Part shown: positions 10,564 to 18,594 of the stretch, piece by piece
Position numbering within the stretch: position 1 is the first letter of the stretch
Layout: the number at the start of each line of letters is the position of its first letter
IMG/VR virus record: IMGVR_UViG_3300026473_000782
Coordinates: 1 to 22,841 of that record
Direction: 5' to 3' (one strand)
From: a virus
DNA: 22,841 bases
The notes under the pieces: model-generated
What the model saw: only the letters and a program-made list of their open reading frames with translations
Database searches by the model: none
What the model was told of the DNA's origin: nothing
Made by a program: the position numbers and the translations under genes

Positions 10564-13272
10564 ATGACCCTCAAGACCCGGCTGGATGAAGCTGTGGGAA
10601 CGATCGAGGGGGATGCCCAACTGCTCCATGAGATCGTCCACGGGGATGATCAGACGACCGTGACCACGCAAGGTGGCCAGGTCAAGAGCGTGGCCAACGT
10701 CATACATGGGGTTCAAACCCAACTTGATGCGTCCCGCCAAGATCTGACCAATCAGGTGGCTACGGCCACCCAACAAGCGAGTAATGCTGCTCAATCGGCT
10801 AGCAATGCATCGACATCGGCCACAACAGCCAGTACCAAGGCAAGTGCGGCCAGTGATTCTGCAACCAGTGCGGCAAGTTCTGCGACGGCTGCGGCGTCTT
10901 CGGCAACCACGGCCAGTACCAAAGCCAGTGATGCCAGCAGCAGCAAAACGGCAGCGGCCACCTCTGCAACCAATGCGGCCACCAGTGCCACCAATGCAGC
11001 GAGCTCGGCAACAGCGGCGGCAGCCTCGGCCACCACCGCGACGCAAAAGGCCAGCGATGCGGCCACCAGTGCCAGTTCGGCGGCGAGCTCCGCCTCCACG
11101 GCCAGCAGTAAGGCAACAGATGCACAGACCGCTTTGGCGTCGGCTCAGTCGCAGGCTTCGTTGGCGTCTGACTGGGCGCAAAAAACCGCTGCAACCGTTG
11201 ACGGCACTGGGTATTCGGCGAAGTATTGGGCCGGTCAGGCAGCCAACTCGGCAGCAGTGGTGACCACCAATACGGTGATTCCGGCTGATGTGTTTGCAGG
11301 GGATGGCGTCAAGACGGATTTCACCCTCAGCCATCCCGTGGCCTATCCGGGTGCTGTGTTGGTGACGGTGGCTGGAGTTCCTCAAGCACCGATAGATTCG
11401 TACTCGGTCCCCGCAAGTACGACCCTGCGCTTTGTGTCCGCACCGGCAACAGGTGTGGGCATCAGTGTTCGGTATCTCGACAAGGAGGCTCAATCTGGCG
11501 CAGCGTCTGCACAGGAGTGGGCCACCAAAACCGGCGGTGTGGTCTCCGGCTCGACGGAATATTCGGCCAAGTACCACGCCCAGGCAGCTGCTGCGAGTGC
11601 CACTTCGGCATCGTCGTCTGCGACGGCGGCATCTGGAAGTGCGACATCGGCAGCAGGCTCCGCAACCACGGCCACGACCAAGGCTGCCGATGCAGGGACG
11701 TCGGCCACCAATGCGGCAACTTCAGCCACCACAGCCAGCACCAAGGCCAGCGACGCTGCGACATCGGCGACCAATGCTGCCAACAGTGCCAGTGGTGCAT
11801 CTGCCTCTGCAACAATAGCAACGGCTAAGGCCACCGATGCAAACAGCAGCGCAACAGCTGCAGCAAGTTCGGCCAGCAGTGCATCTGGCAGTGCCATTCT
11901 GGCGCAGGATTGGGCGACCAAAACGACAGCCCCCGTCAGCGGCAGCGACTATTCGGCCAAGTATTACGCCCAGTCGATCTCTGCTTCAGCATCAACCGCC
12001 ACGCAAAAGGCAACGGATGCGGCGGCCAGTGCGACGGCTGCGGCTGGTTCAGCAAGTACCGCCTCGACCAAAGCCTCGGATGCCGCAACGTCGGCGACCA
12101 ATGCAGCGACTTCTGCCAGTACCGCCAGTACGCAGGCGGCTGCAGCGGCAACCTCAGCCACGAATGCGGCGAGCTCCGCTACTGCAGCGGCAGGTTCGGC
12201 CACCACCGCAAGTGGCAAAGCGACGGACGCAGCCAACAGTGCCACAGCGGCAGCAACCTCGGCCAGCAACGCCAGCACGAGTGCCACCAATGCAGCAACT
12301 TCGGCCACGTCGGCAGCTGGGGCAGCCACAACGGCAACGACTAAAGCTGGGGATGCAACGGCGAGTGCAACTTCCGCTGCTAATTCGGCGACTGCGGCGG
12401 CAGGCAGTGCCACAAGCGCAGCAGGGTCGTTGACGGCATCGCAGGCGCAAGCAACACTGGCTTCTGATTGGGCGCAAAAGACCACCGGTACGGTCGACGG
12501 CAGTGGTTACTCAGCCAAATACTGGGCGGGGCAAGCGGCAGGATCGGCAGCAGCGGTGACGGCCAATACGGTCATTCCCGCCGATGTGTTCACCGGCGAT
12601 GGCGTGAAGACGGATTTCACAATCAGTCGGCCCGTTGGATATCCCGGAGCACTGATGGTGACGGTTGCCGGGGTGCCTCAAGCACCCTTGGATGCCTACA
12701 CCACACCAGCCACGACAACACTCAGATTCAGTTCGGCTCCTGCCAATGGCGTCGTGATCAGCGTGCGCTACCTGGACAAGGAAGCGCAGTCTGGCGCAGC
12801 CGCAGCCGAGGAATGGGCGAACAAGACGTCGGGACCTGTTTCAGGATCGACCGAGTATTCGGCCAAGTACTACGCACAGTCCATCGCTGCAAGTGCGGCG
12901 ACGGCCAGTCAGCAAGCAACCAGTGCCGCGAATTCGGCTGCGGCGTCGGCTGGCAGTGCGACCGCATCGGCGAACTCTGCGACAGCATCAGCAACATCTG
13001 CCACCCAAGCTCAGAGCTACATGAGTCAGGCGCAGGGGTATGCCGCTGCAGCGGGCGGCTCCAGCGTCGCTCCACAGGTCTTTACAGGCAATGGTTCGGC
13101 TACTGACTTCAGTCTGAGCACTGCAGCGTCCAGCGTCCACAAATTGATCGTGACGGTCAATTACGTGGTGCAGGACTCACTCGATGCCTACGTCCTGGTC
13201 AATTCCGGGGCGACTTTGCGATTCACATCAGCACCAGCCGCCAGCGCGCGGATTGTGGTGCGTTACATCTAA
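10564..13272 (+). CDS. Long side tail fibre, Ala/Ser/Thr repeat protein with duplicated beta modules
   Basis: A 902-residue protein beginning after AAGGA. Residues 1-65 form a polar attachment domain with many Gln/Asp, the type seen at the base of lambda-like side fibres. The rest is dominated by Ala-Ser-Ala-Thr-rich repeats of the form Ala-Thr-Ser-Ala-x-x-Ala, typical of fibre shafts. They are interrupted by three copies of a beta-rich module with Thr-Asp-Phe-Thr/Ser-(Leu/Ile)-Ser and a final Val-Arg-Tyr: about residues 237-305, 669-737 and 836-902. Five Trp-Ala-x-Lys-Thr ... Tyr-Ser-Ala-Lys-Tyr motifs are scattered between. The shaft is likely a trimer. The final module ends the protein, so receptor binding probably relies on the following fibre-tip protein. 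Function by analogy with lambda Stf; receptor unknown. Confidence 0.9.
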   Translation: MTLKTRLDEAVGTIEGDAQLLHEIVHGDDQTTVTTQGGQVKSVANVIHGVQTQLDASRQDLTNQVATATQQASNAAQSASNASTSATTASTKASAASDSATSAASSATAAASSATTASTKASDASSSKTAAATSATNAATSATNAASSATAAAASATTATQKASDAATSASSAASSASTASSKATDAQTALASAQSQASLASDWAQKTAATVDGTGYSAKYWAGQAANSAAVVTTNTVIPADVFAGDGVKTDFTLSHPVAYPGAVLVTVAGVPQAPIDSYSVPASTTLRFVSAPATGVGISVRYLDKEAQSGAASAQEWATKTGGVVSGSTEYSAKYHAQAAAASATSASSSATAASGSATSAAGSATTATTKAADAGTSATNAATSATTASTKASDAATSATNAANSASGASASATIATAKATDANSSATAAASSASSASGSAILAQDWATKTTAPVSGSDYSAKYYAQSISASASTATQKATDAAASATAAAGSASTASTKASDAATSATNAATSASTASTQAAAAATSATNAASSATAAAGSATTASGKATDAANSATAAATSASNASTSATNAATSATSAAGAATTATTKAGDATASATSAANSATAAAGSATSAAGSLTASQAQATLASDWAQKTTGTVDGSGYSAKYWAGQAAGSAAAVTANTVIPADVFTGDGVKTDFTISRPVGYPGALMVTVAGVPQAPLDAYTTPATTTLRFSSAPANGVVISVRYLDKEAQSGAAAAEEWANKTSGPVSGSTEYSAKYYAQSIAASAATASQQATSAANSAAASAGSATASANSATASATSATQAQSYMSQAQGYAAAAGGSSVAPQVFTGNGSATDFSLSTAASSVHKLIVTVNYVVQDSLDAYVLVNSGATLRFTSAPAASARIVVRYI
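11161..11583 (+). repeat. Direct duplication, copy 1, inside fibre gene
   Basis: This stretch and 12457-12879 encode the same Trp-motif plus beta-module block, and are collinear at a fixed offset of 1296 bases (432 codons) with no insertion or deletion visible between them. They differ mainly at third positions and a few replaced residues, which points to an old internal duplication with continued selection. Confidence 0.85.
12457..12879 (+). repeat. Direct duplication, copy 2, inside fibre gene
   Basis: Second copy of the block at 11161-11583, offset 1296 bases. Shared landmarks include the Asn-Thr-Val-Ile-Pro-Ala-Asp-Val-Phe start of the beta module and the Leu-Asp-Lys-Glu-Ala-Gln-Ser-Gly-Ala segment that follows it. 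A third, partial and more divergent beta module without this linker lies at 13072-13269. Confidence 0.85.
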
Positions 13273-13284
13273 CTAGGAGAAATC

Positions 13285-13839
13285 ATGGCGATTACGCGCA
13301 TCCCCAAAGCGGGGCTGGATGATGCCTTGCAGAACGAAATCAATGGCAAGTTGGACAAGGCCGGTGGAACCATGACGGGCTCCATCACGATGACCAATGG
13401 AGCCTTGTTCAAGAGCAGCGTCACAAGTGATGACGCTCGAAATACGGGCTACAAGATGGCCGACGGGCAGGACATCGGAGAGATGAATCGCTCAAGTCAG
13501 TACTACGACGACCGGGCCACCAACTGCAATGGATATCTGCCTAATGGCAACTGCGCCAGTAACGGGTACTGGAATCCACCCAATGGCAATTGGTGGACTT
13601 GGGGAGTGAGCGGCGTGCCGACAGGAAACTGTGCCAACTGGGGCAGCTATGACGGTGCAGGCGGCACCTCTCAGGTCTTCAACGCGGTGTCGGTCGGATT
13701 CAACTACGACGGGTACTACGAAGCCGCCAATGAGATCGGTGGTTCTGAATACCACCGTTGGTATCGCAATTGCAACTGTGGGGCGTTCAACTGCCGAACC
13801 AATTGCAATTGCAACTGTGCCTGTTGCGGCTGCTGCTGA
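13285..13839 (+). CDS. Fibre-tip-like protein with Asn-Cys-rich C-terminal tail; candidate substrate of a modification system
   Basis: A 184-residue protein that starts after AGGAGA. Residues 1-50 resemble the short repeats of tail fibres, with Lys-Leu-Asp-Lys-Ala-Gly-Gly-Thr-Met-Thr-Gly at 22-32, common in T4 gp37/short-fibre-like proteins. Residues 78-125 are Asn/Gly/Trp-rich (Trp 96, 103, 104, 106, 119). The last 22 residues (163-184) hold ten cysteines, alternating with Asn as Asn-Cys-Asn-Cys then ending Ala-Cys-Cys-Gly-Cys-Cys. In total there are 13 Cys, nine of them directly preceded by Asn (81, 90, 116, 163, 165, 170, 174, 176, 178). I know no fibre family with this tail. Position just before the beta-rich protein and the oxygenase/radical SAM genes makes it the best candidate substrate. 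A metal-binding tip is an alternative. The tail has no visible peptidase site, and nothing suggests export. Confidence 0.8.
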   Translation: MAITRIPKAGLDDALQNEINGKLDKAGGTMTGSITMTNGALFKSSVTSDDARNTGYKMADGQDIGEMNRSSQYYDDRATNCNGYLPNGNCASNGYWNPPNGNWWTWGVSGVPTGNCANWGSYDGAGGTSQVFNAVSVGFNYDGYYEAANEIGGSEYHRWYRNCNCGAFNCRTNCNCNCACCGCC

Positions 13840-13848
13840 GGAGATGCG

Positions 13849-14682
13849 ATGAAAGTCTATATCACCCGTCCCCCGGCCTATGCAAGCTCGCCAGATCACG
13901 TGGTTCGTGTCTTGGTCGATGCGCCAAAGCAACGCGTTGGTGTTGAGATGTGCATTGTTTTTTCACCCAATCCCAGCGAACCAGTGCCAGATGATGGGAG
14001 CGTTGTGCAAAGCGGTGACAAGTTCTACAAGGTCATCGCTGCCAGCGAGTTTGACTATGAGCTGCTCAAAAGAAGTACGGGGTGGGCGGATCGTCAAGCC
14101 TGGCATCTGACATTCCGTTGGGATGTCCGGTCGTTCACTGATCCGATCCCGCTCTACACCTATTCCATGGCCACCAAGATGTCGGCCCCAGAGTTGTCCC
14201 GAACGACTTACCAAAACAATCTGTCGGTGGGCTTTGTGGTTCCGTTCTCGGACTCGGCCTTTGAAGACTGTGCTGTGACCGTGAACATCAACCCCGATGT
14301 GAACAAAGGCGATTGTGTGGTGATGGGCGTGGACGCCTCGGAAATCGAACGTACCGACTATTCGGCGAGTGCCCAGGTACGGGAGTTGATCTTGTTGCCT
14401 GGTGTCCAGATATCAGCGCCAACGAGCTGTACACCTGACGGCCAGGTCAACGTCCAGGTGCAAGTGCTTGATGCAAATGACATGCCTATTGAGCACGATG
14501 CTGAAATCTTTCTTGAGGCGGTCAATGGCTACCTTCCAAAGACCCGCATCAAAACAGTCAACGGCCAGGCAAGTGTCCCTTTCATGGCCTTGGGCCTTGT
14601 GGCAGGAGATTCAGCACGGGTCAAAGCCGGTTTCAAATATTTCAGTGGTGCTTCTGATGTCTCCATCCAGATCCATGACTAA
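13849..14682 (+). CDS. Beta-rich tail-associated protein with C-terminal Ig-like domain, unknown function
   Basis: A 277-residue protein of predicted beta character, start after GAGGAG. Residues 1-185 are of unknown fold, with Trp/Tyr-containing strands and a Val-Gly-Phe-Val-Val-Pro-Phe strand near 126-132. Residues 185-277 look like an Ig-like (bacterial Big/invasin type) domain: Ile-Ser-Ala-Pro-Thr-Ser-Cys-Thr-Pro-Asp-Gly at the start, alternating Val/Ile strands, then Val-Asn-Gly-Gln-Ala-Ser-Val-Pro-Phe and Ala-Gly-Asp-Ser-Ala-Arg-Val-Lys-Ala. Ig-like domains are common on phage surface proteins, where they may help bind to carbohydrates. Its place between the Cys-rich tip and the oxygenases suggests it is either a second structural tip component or a partner of the modification genes. 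No catalytic motif is seen. Its stop overlaps the next start by eight bases. Confidence 0.75.
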   Translation: MKVYITRPPAYASSPDHVVRVLVDAPKQRVGVEMCIVFSPNPSEPVPDDGSVVQSGDKFYKVIAASEFDYELLKRSTGWADRQAWHLTFRWDVRSFTDPIPLYTYSMATKMSAPELSRTTYQNNLSVGFVVPFSDSAFEDCAVTVNINPDVNKGDCVVMGVDASEIERTDYSASAQVRELILLPGVQISAPTSCTPDGQVNVQVQVLDANDMPIEHDAEIFLEAVNGYLPKTRIKTVNGQASVPFMALGLVAGDSARVKAGFKYFSGASDVSIQIHD

Positions 14683-15283
14683 GGAGCTGTTTGGAGCAAG
14701 GGTATATGTCGGTCTCCATCCATTTCCAGATGACGTGATGCTGGAGATGCGCAAACGGGCGCTGGCTTTACACGAGAGCATTAATCCTCATGGCATGCCA
14801 TGGTCTCGATGCACACGGGAGAGTTTGCATGTCGTCGAACCATTTCAGCAGGTTACGGAATTGATCGAGCATGTGGTCGAGACTGAGTACGGATGCAGTG
14901 TGAGCCACCTGACTGGACGAGAAGTGGTCATACAGAAAGGGCAATGCCTGCCGCTGCACTGTGAGGACACCGATCTGTCAGCGGTATTCGTGCTGAGTAC
15001 TGAAGCCAGGGCGAATCCTGAGCGCAGTGATTACTCCGGCGCATTCGTTTTGGTCAATCCGAGTGGAGCGTTTGGATTCAAGCGCCTGCCATGGGAGGGG
15101 CTGAGATCGGAACTGATTTATCCGGCAGCAGGAATGCTGTTGATTTTCCCGAGCTACCTGGCTCACCACACTCACCCCTACAACGCACAGGAGCCAGCGG
15201 TTGAGTTGCACTTCGAACTCAACGTGGTCGACAACCATGCCCATCAACGTTTACGACAACCCAGTTTCCCCCGAACTCTGTGA
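14675..15283 (+). CDS. 2-oxoglutarate/Fe(II) oxygenase-like protein 1
   Basis: A 202-residue protein from the ATG at 14675, which overlaps the preceding stop by 8 bases; an in-frame ATG at 14657 is a second option. The second half shows a double-stranded beta-helix signature of the 2OG/Fe(II) oxygenase superfamily: a Leu-Pro-Leu-His-Cys-Glu-Asp (92-98), then Leu-Ser-Ala-Val-Phe-Val-Leu (101-107), a Gly-Ala-Phe-Val-Leu-Val-Asn-Pro strand, a Pro-Ala-Ala-Gly-Met-Leu-Leu-Ile-Phe-Pro turn (150-159), and His164/His165. Candidate metal ligands are His95, Glu97 and a His of 164-167. The 2OG-binding Arg expected near residue 176 is not obvious (Val/Glu there), so activity is uncertain. If active, it would hydroxylate or oxidise a protein side chain. 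Its last 47 bases overlap the next gene. Confidence 0.7.
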   Translation: MTKELFGARVYVGLHPFPDDVMLEMRKRALALHESINPHGMPWSRCTRESLHVVEPFQQVTELIEHVVETEYGCSVSHLTGREVVIQKGQCLPLHCEDTDLSAVFVLSTEARANPERSDYSGAFVLVNPSGAFGFKRLPWEGLRSELIYPAAGMLLIFPSYLAHHTHPYNAQEPAVELHFELNVVDNHAHQRLRQPSFPRTL

Positions 15284-15824
15284 AGCAACGCGAGCCTGGC
15301 TTTTGTCGCAAAGCCCCATCTTCGGATGGCGAGCACACGCGAATGCACCAGGCGTGTTCTGGCATCGAAATTTCGTGTTGCCAGGAATACATCAACACCA
15401 CTATGACGATGATGCTTGGAATTCTGAGCTGAGTTACGAGGCCTTTTGTGCGTCGAAAAGCCCCTTGGCTGAGGTTGCCGAGATCGTTCGCCAGCAGCAC
15501 TTTGGCGGAGAGTCCTTCACTCGGATCTGGGCTAACTTTCAGTCCTTTGGTGACGAGTCAGCATTTCACAGGGACTTCCCTGTGCAGTACGCACGGACTG
15601 CCCGCACAGCCGTTTGGTATCCAATGATGAACTGGGAGAGGGATTGGGGTGGTGATTTCATCACTCTCTCGGATGACGGAGAGGTCGATGCCTGCACATT
15701 GATTAAACCCAATCGACTGGTGGTGTTTAACGGGACGCAAACGCATGCAGCTCGTCCAATTTCTCGCTACTGCAGCGAACTGCGAATAGCAGTTTCATTC
15801 GGATGTGAGGTGATCAATGCTTGA
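15237..15824 (+). CDS. 2-oxoglutarate/Fe(II) oxygenase 2, prolyl-4-hydroxylase-like
   Basis: A 195-residue protein of the P4H-like 2OG/Fe(II) dioxygenase family, the clearest of the three. The His-x-Asp is His111-Arg-Asp113, the distal His is His170 (in Asn-Gly-Thr-Gln-Thr-His-Ala), and the 2OG-binding Arg is Arg183, 13 residues on (Glu-Leu-Arg-Ile-Ala-Val-Ser-Phe). A Trp-Gly-Gly-Asp-Phe (138-142) sits in the usual fold position. Such enzymes hydroxylate Pro, Asn, Asp or other side chains of proteins using O2 and 2-oxoglutarate. I choose the ATG at 15237 over an in-frame ATG at 15201; both lie inside the preceding gene, so the two overlap. Substrate is unknown; the Asn-Cys tail of the 13285 protein is the inferred target. 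The end overlaps the next gene by eight bases. Confidence 0.88.
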   Translation: MPINVYDNPVSPELCEATRAWLLSQSPIFGWRAHANAPGVFWHRNFVLPGIHQHHYDDDAWNSELSYEAFCASKSPLAEVAEIVRQQHFGGESFTRIWANFQSFGDESAFHRDFPVQYARTARTAVWYPMMNWERDWGGDFITLSDDGEVDACTLIKPNRLVVFNGTQTHAARPISRYCSELRIAVSFGCEVINA

Positions 15825-16482
15825 GCATCTATGGAGCACTCCAGTTCTCCATGAGGAGTCGCCCTTCACCATGGACCAGCTTGAGGAGTTGAAGCAATTC
15901 ACAACTGAGCGATTTCGCAATCACAAAGCCAATCCGCCTCGTCATGCATTGCCTGATGTGCCCGTGAAGTTGCGAACGCAGCTGAATCTGTTCTTGCCTG
16001 ATCATGAGATGCATGCCCCAGCGGTCTGGTTTGAATTCAAACGCTGGGTAGATCGCACCTACCGCGCCTATCTGAAAGAGGCCCATGGAGTTAGGAATGT
16101 GAACGAGCTTGAAGTGCTCGCTCGGTGCATCCCTGTCTGCTACCAAAAGGGCATGCGCGCGCAGCCTCATTACCACCACACTGGCGATCATGTGCTGTGT
16201 CTGTATTTGGATTGCGGCAACGACCGAATACCTCCTCAGGACCGTGATTGGACGGTCGGAGATGGTGAATTGCTCTTACAGGACCCCCGCCCCATGGCGG
16301 GGTTTCCATTTTGGGAGAAGGTTCGCTACATCGAAACATCTCCCGGCCTGGTCGTATTGCACCCATCGCGGGTATGGCATGAGACCAACCCCTTCAATGC
16401 CCCAAGCGGTCAACGCACCTTGTTGGTCGTGACCCTGCGTGTGGCGTCCCACAACTACACCGAGCTGTACACCCGGCTATGA
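15817..16482 (+). CDS. 2-oxoglutarate/Fe(II) oxygenase-like protein 3
   Basis: A 221-residue protein whose core resembles the TIGR02466-like branch of 2OG/Fe(II) oxygenases: Gln-Pro-His-Tyr-His-His (116-121) before Val-Leu-Cys-Leu-Tyr-Leu-Asp, Gly-Glu-Leu-Leu-Leu-Gln-Asp-Pro-Arg (150-158), a Ser-Pro-Gly-Leu-Val-Val-Leu-His-Pro-Ser turn (175-184), His188 and Arg200 (Gly-Gln-Arg-Thr-Leu-Leu-Val). This spacing of His188 and Arg200 fits the distal His and 2OG-binding Arg. The first metal pair is not a plain His-x-Asp; His118 and His120 or His121 are the candidates. The N-terminal 100 residues are helical and charged and may bind the substrate. It is the third oxygenase-like gene in a row and is not closely similar to the other two by eye, so it is not a recent duplicate. 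Confidence 0.75.
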   Translation: MLEHLWSTPVLHEESPFTMDQLEELKQFTTERFRNHKANPPRHALPDVPVKLRTQLNLFLPDHEMHAPAVWFEFKRWVDRTYRAYLKEAHGVRNVNELEVLARCIPVCYQKGMRAQPHYHHTGDHVLCLYLDCGNDRIPPQDRDWTVGDGELLLQDPRPMAGFPFWEKVRYIETSPGLVVLHPSRVWHETNPFNAPSGQRTLLVVTLRVASHNYTELYTRL

Positions 16483-16500
16483 GCCGATTCGGAGATGACG

Positions 16501-16698
16501 ATGATTGAGAAAACCATAGACCTCGTTGATGACGAGCATGTTTTGTTCACTGTGACGGTAGTCGAAGGCGAGCGTATCCGCTCCCGTCGTGAGTACCACT
16601 TGGCCAAGTTCGCCCACCAAGACGCTGAAGAGGTCTGCCGACAGGCTTGCCCCGAGGCATTCGCACAAGAGCCGTCGGTTCAGAGTGGAGGCGTGTGA
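16501..16698 (+). CDS. Small 65-residue protein of unknown function between oxygenases and radical SAM gene
   Basis: A 65-residue acidic protein. I choose the ATG at 16501, six bases after GGAG at 16491-16494, over an in-frame ATG at 16495 which is too close to that site. The first half shows alternating hydrophobic residues of a small beta-hairpin (Val-Leu-Phe-Thr-Val-Thr-Val-Val-Glu-Gly-Glu), then a helix containing Gln-Asp-Ala-Glu-Glu-Val-Cys. It has two Cys (46, 50). The stop overlaps the radical SAM ATG (TGATG), so it is likely made in step with that enzyme. Small adapter proteins that bind the precursor are common next to peptide-modifying radical SAM genes, but this one lacks an obvious winged-helix (PqqD-like) pattern and is shorter. 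I do not recognise its family. Confidence 0.7.
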   Translation: MIEKTIDLVDDEHVLFTVTVVEGERIRSRREYHLAKFAHQDAEEVCRQACPEAFAQEPSVQSGGV

Positions 16699-18059
16699 TG
16701 GCCAAGTTCACATTGCTGGCACGCGATCGTGCCAATTCACCCGTTACGCTGACTTACGACAACCAGACCAGTGAACTGCTTGATGGGGATCTGATGCCTT
16801 GGCCTCTGCCGTATGTGGAAAAAACCTGGTCGGTTGGTCACATCGAGGCGATTAGCCAGACGATGCCAGGGCGCAAAGAGAGTCCAAAAGTTCTGAAAAT
16901 TCAGCTCGGTCTTTCATGCAACTATTCGTGTGACTACTGCAGCCAGCGATTCGTTCCTCATGCTGAAGAAACAACGCAGTCAGATGTGCCGCAGTTCTTG
17001 CATCTGCTCGAATCAAGTCTTGAGAGGGCTCCAGAGCGCATTGAGTTCTGGGGAGGGGAGCCGCTGGTCTACATCAAGACCTTGCGTCCATTGGCCGAGG
17101 CCCTGCGACAGCGATACCCGACTGCTTCATTCAGCATCGTTACCAACGGCTCTTTACTCAACCCTGAGGTCAACACCTGGCTTGATGTGATGGGATTTGG
17201 CGTCGGCGTTAGTCACGACGGACCAGGACAACCCGCTCGCGGCCCAGATCCGTTGAATGATGAGGCGAGTCGCGAAGGAATCATGGATTTGTATCAACGA
17301 CTTGCACCGAAGGGGCGCATTTCGTTCAATGCTATGGTCCATAGAACCAACACCAGCCGGGAGGAAATCGCCAAGTTCTTCCTCCAGTTGACAGGAGACC
17401 CATCGCTGTCAATCGGCGAAGGTGCTTTTGTTGATCCTTACGATGCTGGTGGCTTGGCCAATTCGATCCAGTCTGATCAGGAGGCGTTTGCATTCCGACG
17501 TCAATCGCTTGATGAGATCCGTCGTGGTCGTATCGTTCATTTGGACGTGGCTCGATCCCGCATGCAGGAATGGGCGCGCAGTATCTTGGAGCGTCGTCCT
17601 GCCAGCGTATTGGGCCAAAAGTGCGGGATGGATACCGCGAATCAAGTCGCCGTCGACCTTATGGGTAATGTGCTCACCTGTCAGAACGTGAGCTCGGTTT
17701 CTGTTGCACCCAATGGGCAATCACATCACATTGGCCATCTCTCCAATCTCAAAGCAGCTGCACTCAACACATCGACACACTGGTCAAAGCGTACGGAATG
17801 CCTGAATTGCCCAGTGCTTCAGGCTTGTAAGGGCGCTTGCATGTTCTTAGAGGGGCCGTTGTGGACAGCCGCCTGCGATAACGCGTACTCGGACCATGTG
17901 CCATTCTTTGTGGCCGCTATTGAACACCTAACCGGGTGTGCCGTTTATCGCATCGAAGGCGATTTGCCAGAGGATCGAGCTGACGTTTTTGGGCTGAAGT
18001 CGCAGGACCAAAGATCACCGCGACGCAAGTTCATCCCGATCGAGGTCTCAAATGCCTGA
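16698..18059 (+). CDS. Radical SAM/SPASM-domain protein-modifying enzyme
   Basis: A 453-residue radical SAM protein with a SPASM domain. I choose the ATG at 16698 (ribosome-binding site GTGGAG) over the in-frame ATG at 16647. The canonical cluster motif is Cys74-x3-Cys78-x2-Cys81, with Gly-Gly-Glu-Pro at 119-122 and Thr-Asn-Gly-Ser near 149-152. The C-terminal auxiliary domain has a complete SPASM pattern: Cys309, Cys328 (Cys-x13-Gly-x4-Cys), then Cys368-x2-Cys371-x5-Cys377-x3-Cys381, and Cys393, enough for two auxiliary 4Fe-4S clusters. SPASM enzymes mostly act on ribosomal peptides or proteins, making thioether, carbon-carbon or other crosslinks, or serving as maturases. The target is inferred to be the Cys-rich tip protein at 13285. 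It ends 8 bases inside the next tail gene. Enzyme class is certain; reaction is not. Confidence 0.93.
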   Translation: MAKFTLLARDRANSPVTLTYDNQTSELLDGDLMPWPLPYVEKTWSVGHIEAISQTMPGRKESPKVLKIQLGLSCNYSCDYCSQRFVPHAEETTQSDVPQFLHLLESSLERAPERIEFWGGEPLVYIKTLRPLAEALRQRYPTASFSIVTNGSLLNPEVNTWLDVMGFGVGVSHDGPGQPARGPDPLNDEASREGIMDLYQRLAPKGRISFNAMVHRTNTSREEIAKFFLQLTGDPSLSIGEGAFVDPYDAGGLANSIQSDQEAFAFRRQSLDEIRRGRIVHLDVARSRMQEWARSILERRPASVLGQKCGMDTANQVAVDLMGNVLTCQNVSSVSVAPNGQSHHIGHLSNLKAAALNTSTHWSKRTECLNCPVLQACKGACMFLEGPLWTAACDNAYSDHVPFFVAAIEHLTGCAVYRIEGDLPEDRADVFGLKSQDQRSPRRKFIPIEVSNA

Positions 18060-18594
18060 TGCAGCACTTTCTGAGGCGCTTCGGGAGGCTTATGCAAGCG
18101 CTCCAAGCAACGTGATCATCCTGCATACCCTGGAGATCCGGCATCCGGACTTCAGGGACGACGCGGGTAACTCGACGGCGATCCGGGTGGTGCGTGATCA
18201 GCAAGACTTACTTGCGAGGCTTGAGGCATCAGCCCCAATCAATGCGGGCCAGCAGGTTCGATTCGTTGCCATGGGCTTTGAGCTTGATCTTCCGCCGGTG
18301 GATATCGCGCCGGTTCCCGAAATTGCGATCACCCTGGACAACGTCACCCGAGAGATCGTGAAGCACTTGGACGAGGCATCGGCTTCGGAGTCATCCATTG
18401 AAGTGACCTACCGTCCGTACCTGTCCAACGATCTGAGTGGTCCGCAGATGGATCCACCGATCACGCTCGTGATCACCGAAGTCGAGGCCGACGTGCAGCG
18501 GGTCACCGCCAAGGCACGCATGGCGGACATTGGCAACAAGACATTCCCGTCACGTCTGTACACCGCAACCGAATTCCCAGGGCTGGCCCGATGA
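18052..18594 (+). CDS. DUF1833-family minor tail protein (gpL-like position)
   Basis: A 180-residue protein recognised as DUF1833, a phage tail-tip family. It starts with Leu-Arg-Glu-Ala-Tyr-Ala-Ser-Ala-Pro and shows Leu-His-Thr-Leu-Glu-Ile-Arg-His-Pro (25-33), a Phe-Val-Ala-Met-Gly-Phe-Glu-Leu-Asp-Leu-Pro strand, and ends with Lys-Thr-Phe-Pro-Ser-Arg-Leu-Tyr-Thr, all typical for this family. It occupies the place of lambda gpL, which joins the tape measure tip and may carry an iron-sulphur cluster; this protein has no cysteine, so no such cluster is expected here. It resumes the tail gene order after the modification genes and starts inside the end of the radical SAM gene. The stop overlaps the next start by four bases. 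Confidence 0.85.
   Translation: MPDAALSEALREAYASAPSNVIILHTLEIRHPDFRDDAGNSTAIRVVRDQQDLLARLEASAPINAGQQVRFVAMGFELDLPPVDIAPVPEIAITLDNVTREIVKHLDEASASESSIEVTYRPYLSNDLSGPQMDPPITLVITEVEADVQRVTAKARMADIGNKTFPSRLYTATEFPGLAR

Follow-up and report, generated by a model that had tools for sequence, protein, structure and literature searches.

The question raised by this locus is whether a phage carries, among its tail genes, a radical SAM enzyme that modifies the neighboring fiber. The window (the whole stretch of DNA analyzed) is a 22.8-kb fragment of a siphovirus-like phage. In one overlapping run of plus-strand genes it encodes a fiber-like protein of 184 amino acids (13285..13839), a beta-rich Ig-like protein (13849..14682), three 2OG-Fe(II) oxygenase-like proteins (14675..15283, 15237..15824, and 15817..16482), a 67-amino-acid protein (16495..16698), and a full SPASM radical SAM enzyme (16698..18059). 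These open reading frames confirmed the gene positions given in a first-pass annotation of the same DNA. Its description of starts that overlap or abut the preceding stops from 14675 onward was correct for the run with the exception of a 12-nucleotide gap before 16495, and the small protein that it had placed there was present, but with a length of 67 rather than 65 residues. Upstream of the module lies the gene for a long, Ala/Ser/Thr-rich tail-fiber stalk protein of 902 amino acids (10564..13272, plus strand), which matches PHROG tail fiber families (best match phrog_3279, E = 4e-27). Because the gene for a DUF1833 minor tail protein (18052..18594, plus strand; PF08875, E = 3e-43; phrog_396) adjoins the module downstream, we place the module within the tail genes. 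The 184-residue protein gave weak PHROG tail-fiber matches (best E = 0.02), and from these matches and the gene context we infer that it is located in the virion.

This fiber-like protein, the proposed substrate, contains 13 cysteines, 10 of which fall within its last 24 residues, in agreement with the 10-Cys tail described earlier. The C-terminal Asn/Cys segment, NCNCGAFNCRTNCNCNCACCGCC (13768..13836, plus strand), has the form (X-Cys)n. Its codons are mixed (AAT/AAC and TGC/TGT), and pairwise comparison of the tail segment among tails closely related to that of the window revealed 81 synonymous and 4 nonsynonymous codon differences; the tail is therefore not a DNA-level repeat. Across non-redundant loci, X was Asn in 355 instances (69%), Ala in 74 (14%), and Asp in 46, with other residues rare. 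The tail was kept in more than 150 related loci. It either lies at the very end of the protein or close to it, or immediately precedes a Hint self-cleavage domain; in 54 of 97 loci the protein stopped exactly at the motif. The (X-Cys)n tail is under constraint at the protein level. The proteins that bear it vary in form: the locus L256 (2321-2785) encodes a collagen-like (GPQ)n fiber with the terminus NCNCACDCGNN, and in L162, L185, and L201 three short fiber-like proteins are encoded in tandem before a single radical SAM gene, and every one of them carries an (X-Cys)n tail.

The first-pass annotation had proposed that the tail be sought in other genomes together with a nearby radical SAM gene, and had held that tails regularly occurring without such a gene would speak against a common system. 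Viral contigs were scanned with a DNA pattern for NCNCNCxC without consulting the enzyme, which yielded at least 120 loci. Among the matches listed, the motif ended an open reading frame or preceded a Hint domain in 72 loci, and 63 of these had the radical SAM gene on the same record (56 in the fetched DNA and 7 elsewhere on the record). Eight of the nine listed tail loci without the gene were fiber tails with no more than approximately 1.2 kb of contig downstream, and the ninth, L102, appears to be a chance open reading frame. The other motif hits among the matches listed had a radical SAM gene in 3 of 48 cases, all three apparently the same system (63/72 versus 3/48; Fisher p = 3e-20, a value that ignores relatedness). 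Clustering of the 72 listed tail loci at 80% fiber identity gave 45 clusters, 41 of them with the radical SAM gene. When the search was begun from the enzyme, a tail on the same strand was found in 111 of 137 radical SAM loci. Twenty-five of the 26 misses had no more than approximately 2.6 kb of upstream sequence, and the remaining one, L034, begins in a run reading LQLQLQ, consistent with a tail in another frame. The radical SAM gene was mostly less than 3 kb downstream of the fiber gene, in the same run. A scan of bacterial genomes added 80 further enzyme loci, most with a tail, and the pair was present in contigs of Limnohabitans, Burkholderia paludis, Thalassobacter, Rhodoplanes, and others, as well as in Achromobacter phages 2-1 and JWF. 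A motif search of 301 genomes of one family, the Comamonadaceae, matched mostly pure AACTGC hexamer repeats and was too noisy for use, and tblastn of the window fiber and Ig-like protein against the phage collection returned no match. Collectively, the (X-Cys)n tail and the radical SAM enzyme are conserved as a pair in both viral contigs and prophages, and tails regularly lacking the enzyme gene were not observed in the viral-contig and bacterial scans. Because tail-ended fibers almost always precede the same radical SAM gene, we propose that the tip of the virion fiber is very probably chemically remodeled.

This near-obligate pairing would be without reason if the tail were a metal- or Fe-S-binding tip, like that of the iron-tipped phage spikes, and the enzyme acted on something else nearby. 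The CxCxC array would be a plausible set of ligands, and a fiber trimer may unite three tails, but given the pairing we regard this explanation as very unlikely. Related enzymes also occur in non-phage chromosomal contexts without a tail (L241, L262, L271, L273, and L283), as might be expected if the locus made a secreted, bacteriocin-like peptide that the phage carries, its resemblance to a fiber being incidental. However, a search of the entire genomes from which these five loci come did not reveal the tail motif pattern, neither a transporter nor a peptidase could be recognized among the genes of the window module, and the tail-bearing substrates are mostly 90 to 740 amino acids in length, many of them encoded among tail genes, with the motif C-terminal or before a Hint domain. 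We give the bacteriocin explanation the least credence, as a highly improbable one.

Several more distant enzymes were encountered in these searches. The radical SAM genes of Erwinia, Campylobacter, and Salmonella phages were set aside; they probably belong to another system, since the fetched stretches contained no such (X-Cys)n tail. The phages of L103 and L176 carry a very divergent radical SAM enzyme (tree distance approximately 3.5) and 2 to 3 further radical SAM-like genes; close by is a short protein with an (NC)4-type tail at its end, and the pairing of tail and radical SAM enzyme may have originated a second time here. In L271 and L273, the chromosomal relatives of the enzyme adjoin proteins of 64 to 65 amino acids with one Cys, possibly a cellular peptide system.

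The identification of the 16698 product as a radical SAM/SPASM enzyme was upheld by PF04055 (29.7 bits, just over the cut-off of 29.5), by the NCBIfam SPASM domain model TIGR04085 (above cut-off), and by a full set of cysteines; it also matched phrog_1802. The enzyme contains a CxxxCxxC motif and the complete SPASM set (Cys309, Cys328, Cys368, Cys371, Cys377, Cys381, and Cys393), and all ten of these cysteines (three in the former, seven in the latter) were invariant in 48 of 48 diverse homologues. The nearest NCBIfam models included those of the PapB ranthipeptide, geopeptide, quinohemoprotein, and SCIFF maturases, all matched far below cut-off; the best by E-value, the PapB model NF047865, scored 62 bits against a cut-off of 340, which leaves the enzyme outside that equivalog family. 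In a Foldseek search, the top solved match was the thioether maturase CteB (E = 9e-12, TM 0.51), followed by ChlB, anSME, TigE, SuiB, and SkfB. Many RiPP maturases carry an RRE domain. The AlphaFold model of the phage enzyme (mean pLDDT 92.5) lacks this N-terminal winged helix, and its residues 3-28 form short beta strands with no wHTH. To our knowledge, SPASM chemistry is not reliably predictable from sequence.

The Aux I site is open in CteB and fully ligated in anSME (PMC6231123). By alignment, the seven-Cys SPASM pattern of the phage enzyme fits that of CteB; the additional Aux I Cys of anSME sets that enzyme apart, and the phage enzyme is expected to have an open Aux I site. The SCIFF/CteB system differs from the phage module in that the phage enzyme is without an RRE domain and its proposed substrate is an alternating, C-terminal repeat. 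The enzyme might instead oxidize the tail cysteines to formylglycine, as anSME does, creating an aldehyde tip with the potential to bond covalently to receptor amines. Indeed, anSME, a SPASM enzyme with a protein Cys as its substrate, ranks with the closest solved relatives in both sequence and fold, and one record of phage JWF annotates the enzyme as an anaerobic sulfatase-maturating enzyme. However, Gln329 stands in the place of the Asp that follows Cys276 of anSME, which we take to be its catalytic base, and the alignment shows no Cys at the position of the fourth, additional Aux I Cys of anSME, making formylglycine formation unlikely. Alternatively, the strict two-residue alternation of the tail could reflect epimerization of the X residues, so that D- and L-residues alternate and the tail adopts a beta-helix fold, as in polytheonamide-type peptides. 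The spread of Asn, Ala, and Asp at X would be tolerable for an epimerase, but the phage enzyme has a full SPASM domain with seven invariant cysteines, and the epimerase EpeE was a far weaker structural match (E approximately 6e-7, TM approximately 0.34) than CteB. Epimerization thus seems rather unlikely.

Thioether formation is the reaction that we favor: it is quite likely, as judged from the sequence and structure comparisons, that the radical SAM maturase modifies the C-terminal tail of the phage fiber, probably by installing thioether links. The earlier proposal that the enzyme modifies the neighboring fiber protein is supported to this extent by its pairing with the tail and its kinship with thioether maturases (NCBIfam and Foldseek), but not in its inclusion of essential oxygenases and Asn hydroxylation. 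The dedicated SPASM enzyme would act on the (X-Cys)n tail before fiber assembly, and the likeliest products would be links from Cys to a neighboring residue, with a loss of 2 Da each. A tail linked in this way may form a tip that is compact, rigid, and resistant to chemicals, or a knob that contacts the receptor. PapB joins Cys to Asp at adjacent positions as well, and its substrate PapA, like the phage tail, is Cys-rich with repeated acidic partners (PMC9413430); thus, neighbor links in a CxCxC tail are chemically possible. Since X is Ala at 14% of positions, which is unsuited to a beta-carbon Asx link everywhere, the link may instead be made to the alpha-carbon, or the reaction may be a different one. 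The two SPASM systems differ in that PapA is a small peptide, whereas the phage substrate is the C-terminus of a fiber.

Modification of a larger protein has a parallel in QhpD, the quinohemoprotein amine dehydrogenase maturase, a SPASM enzyme that forms thioether links within a protein-complex subunit and not in a free peptide. The phage enzyme, however, scored 52 bits against the QhpD cut-off of 453, and no common substrate sequence was seen. Iron-tipped phage spikes of the P2 gpV type bear a chemically special trimer tip with a His-based metal site and are not known to involve an enzyme; the proposed module resembles them in placing a special tip on a tail part but differs in including an enzyme. 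The literature searched contained nothing on point for radical SAM enzymes and phage tail modification.

A Cys-initial domain follows the tail directly in 15 loci, a count in which two entries duplicate Achromobacter phage records. This domain is a Hint domain in Achromobacter phage JWF (PF05203, above cut-off), and the combination of an N-terminal Cys and a Hint match after the tail, the signature of a self-cleaving domain, was found in relatives; the window contains no Hint domain. The tail-Hint loci are scattered on the enzyme tree, and therefore the joint between tail and Hint domain arose or was lost several times. In this minority of phages, the Hint domain presumably excises itself to leave a fiber ending at the tail, an end state that the window fiber would reach naturally, its protein already terminating at the tail. 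We lean toward regarding these proteins as a widespread virion class in which a dedicated radical SAM enzyme converts the C-terminus into an (X-Cys)n tip with multiple links; in several lineages Hint domains are joined to the tail. If so, phages would apply RiPP-style radical chemistry to a virion part, and the module would offer a new way of making receptor-binding tips that are rigid and protease-resistant, along with a large natural set of (X-Cys)n substrate/enzyme pairs. The C-terminal NCNCNC tail is a simple marker for the module, which occurs in uncultured phages by the hundreds as well as in named bacterial genomes. Among isolates, Achromobacter phages 2-1 and JWF carry it and are open to direct testing.

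The remaining genes of the module differ in constancy. The Ig-like family was present in 78 of 91 non-redundant tail loci. The label of a beta-rich, Ig-like protein for the 13849 product proved sound: its AlphaFold model (pLDDT 95.7) has two domains, the C-terminal one resembling the Ig-like domains of intimin (Foldseek 1f00/6tpl), and unnamed phage homologues match along its full length. This near-constant partner is probably a further part of the tip or a factor that presents the tail. The 67-residue protein, which had no Pfam or NCBIfam match, belongs to a family found in 33 loci, in all of them at position -1 to the radical SAM gene.

The naming of three oxygenase-like genes was supported for 14675 by a Pfam match above cut-off (PF13759, 27.3 bits against 27), while the FlmC-like 15237 (PF13640, 26.8 bits; NF052475, E = 2e-11 but far below its cut-off) and 15817 (PF13759, 26.7 bits; phrog_81) fell just under the same Pfam cut-off of 27. 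In the A4 alignment of these proteins two His residues are invariant and the second ligand varies (H, E, or D); the Arg after the distal His is kept in 15237 and 15817 and absent in 14675. The commonest gene order was fiber, Ig-like, 2OG, radical SAM (64 loci, not de-replicated). Families of 2OG genes were found in 65 of the 91 non-redundant tail loci and were missing from 26, which does not support the view of the oxygenases as part of an essential system. Nor did the Asn content of the tail depend on their presence (0.72 in loci with and 0.68 in loci without 2OG genes, p = 0.91), which leaves the suggested hydroxylation of tail Asn without support. The 2OG genes are accessory to the module, and their products would be optional tailoring enzymes. 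An expanded module was observed in L033, L034, L059, and L081. Its further genes resemble 2OG enzymes by eye, with no Pfam match for the representatives scanned, and those loci that were inspected closely also hold a desaturase-like gene.
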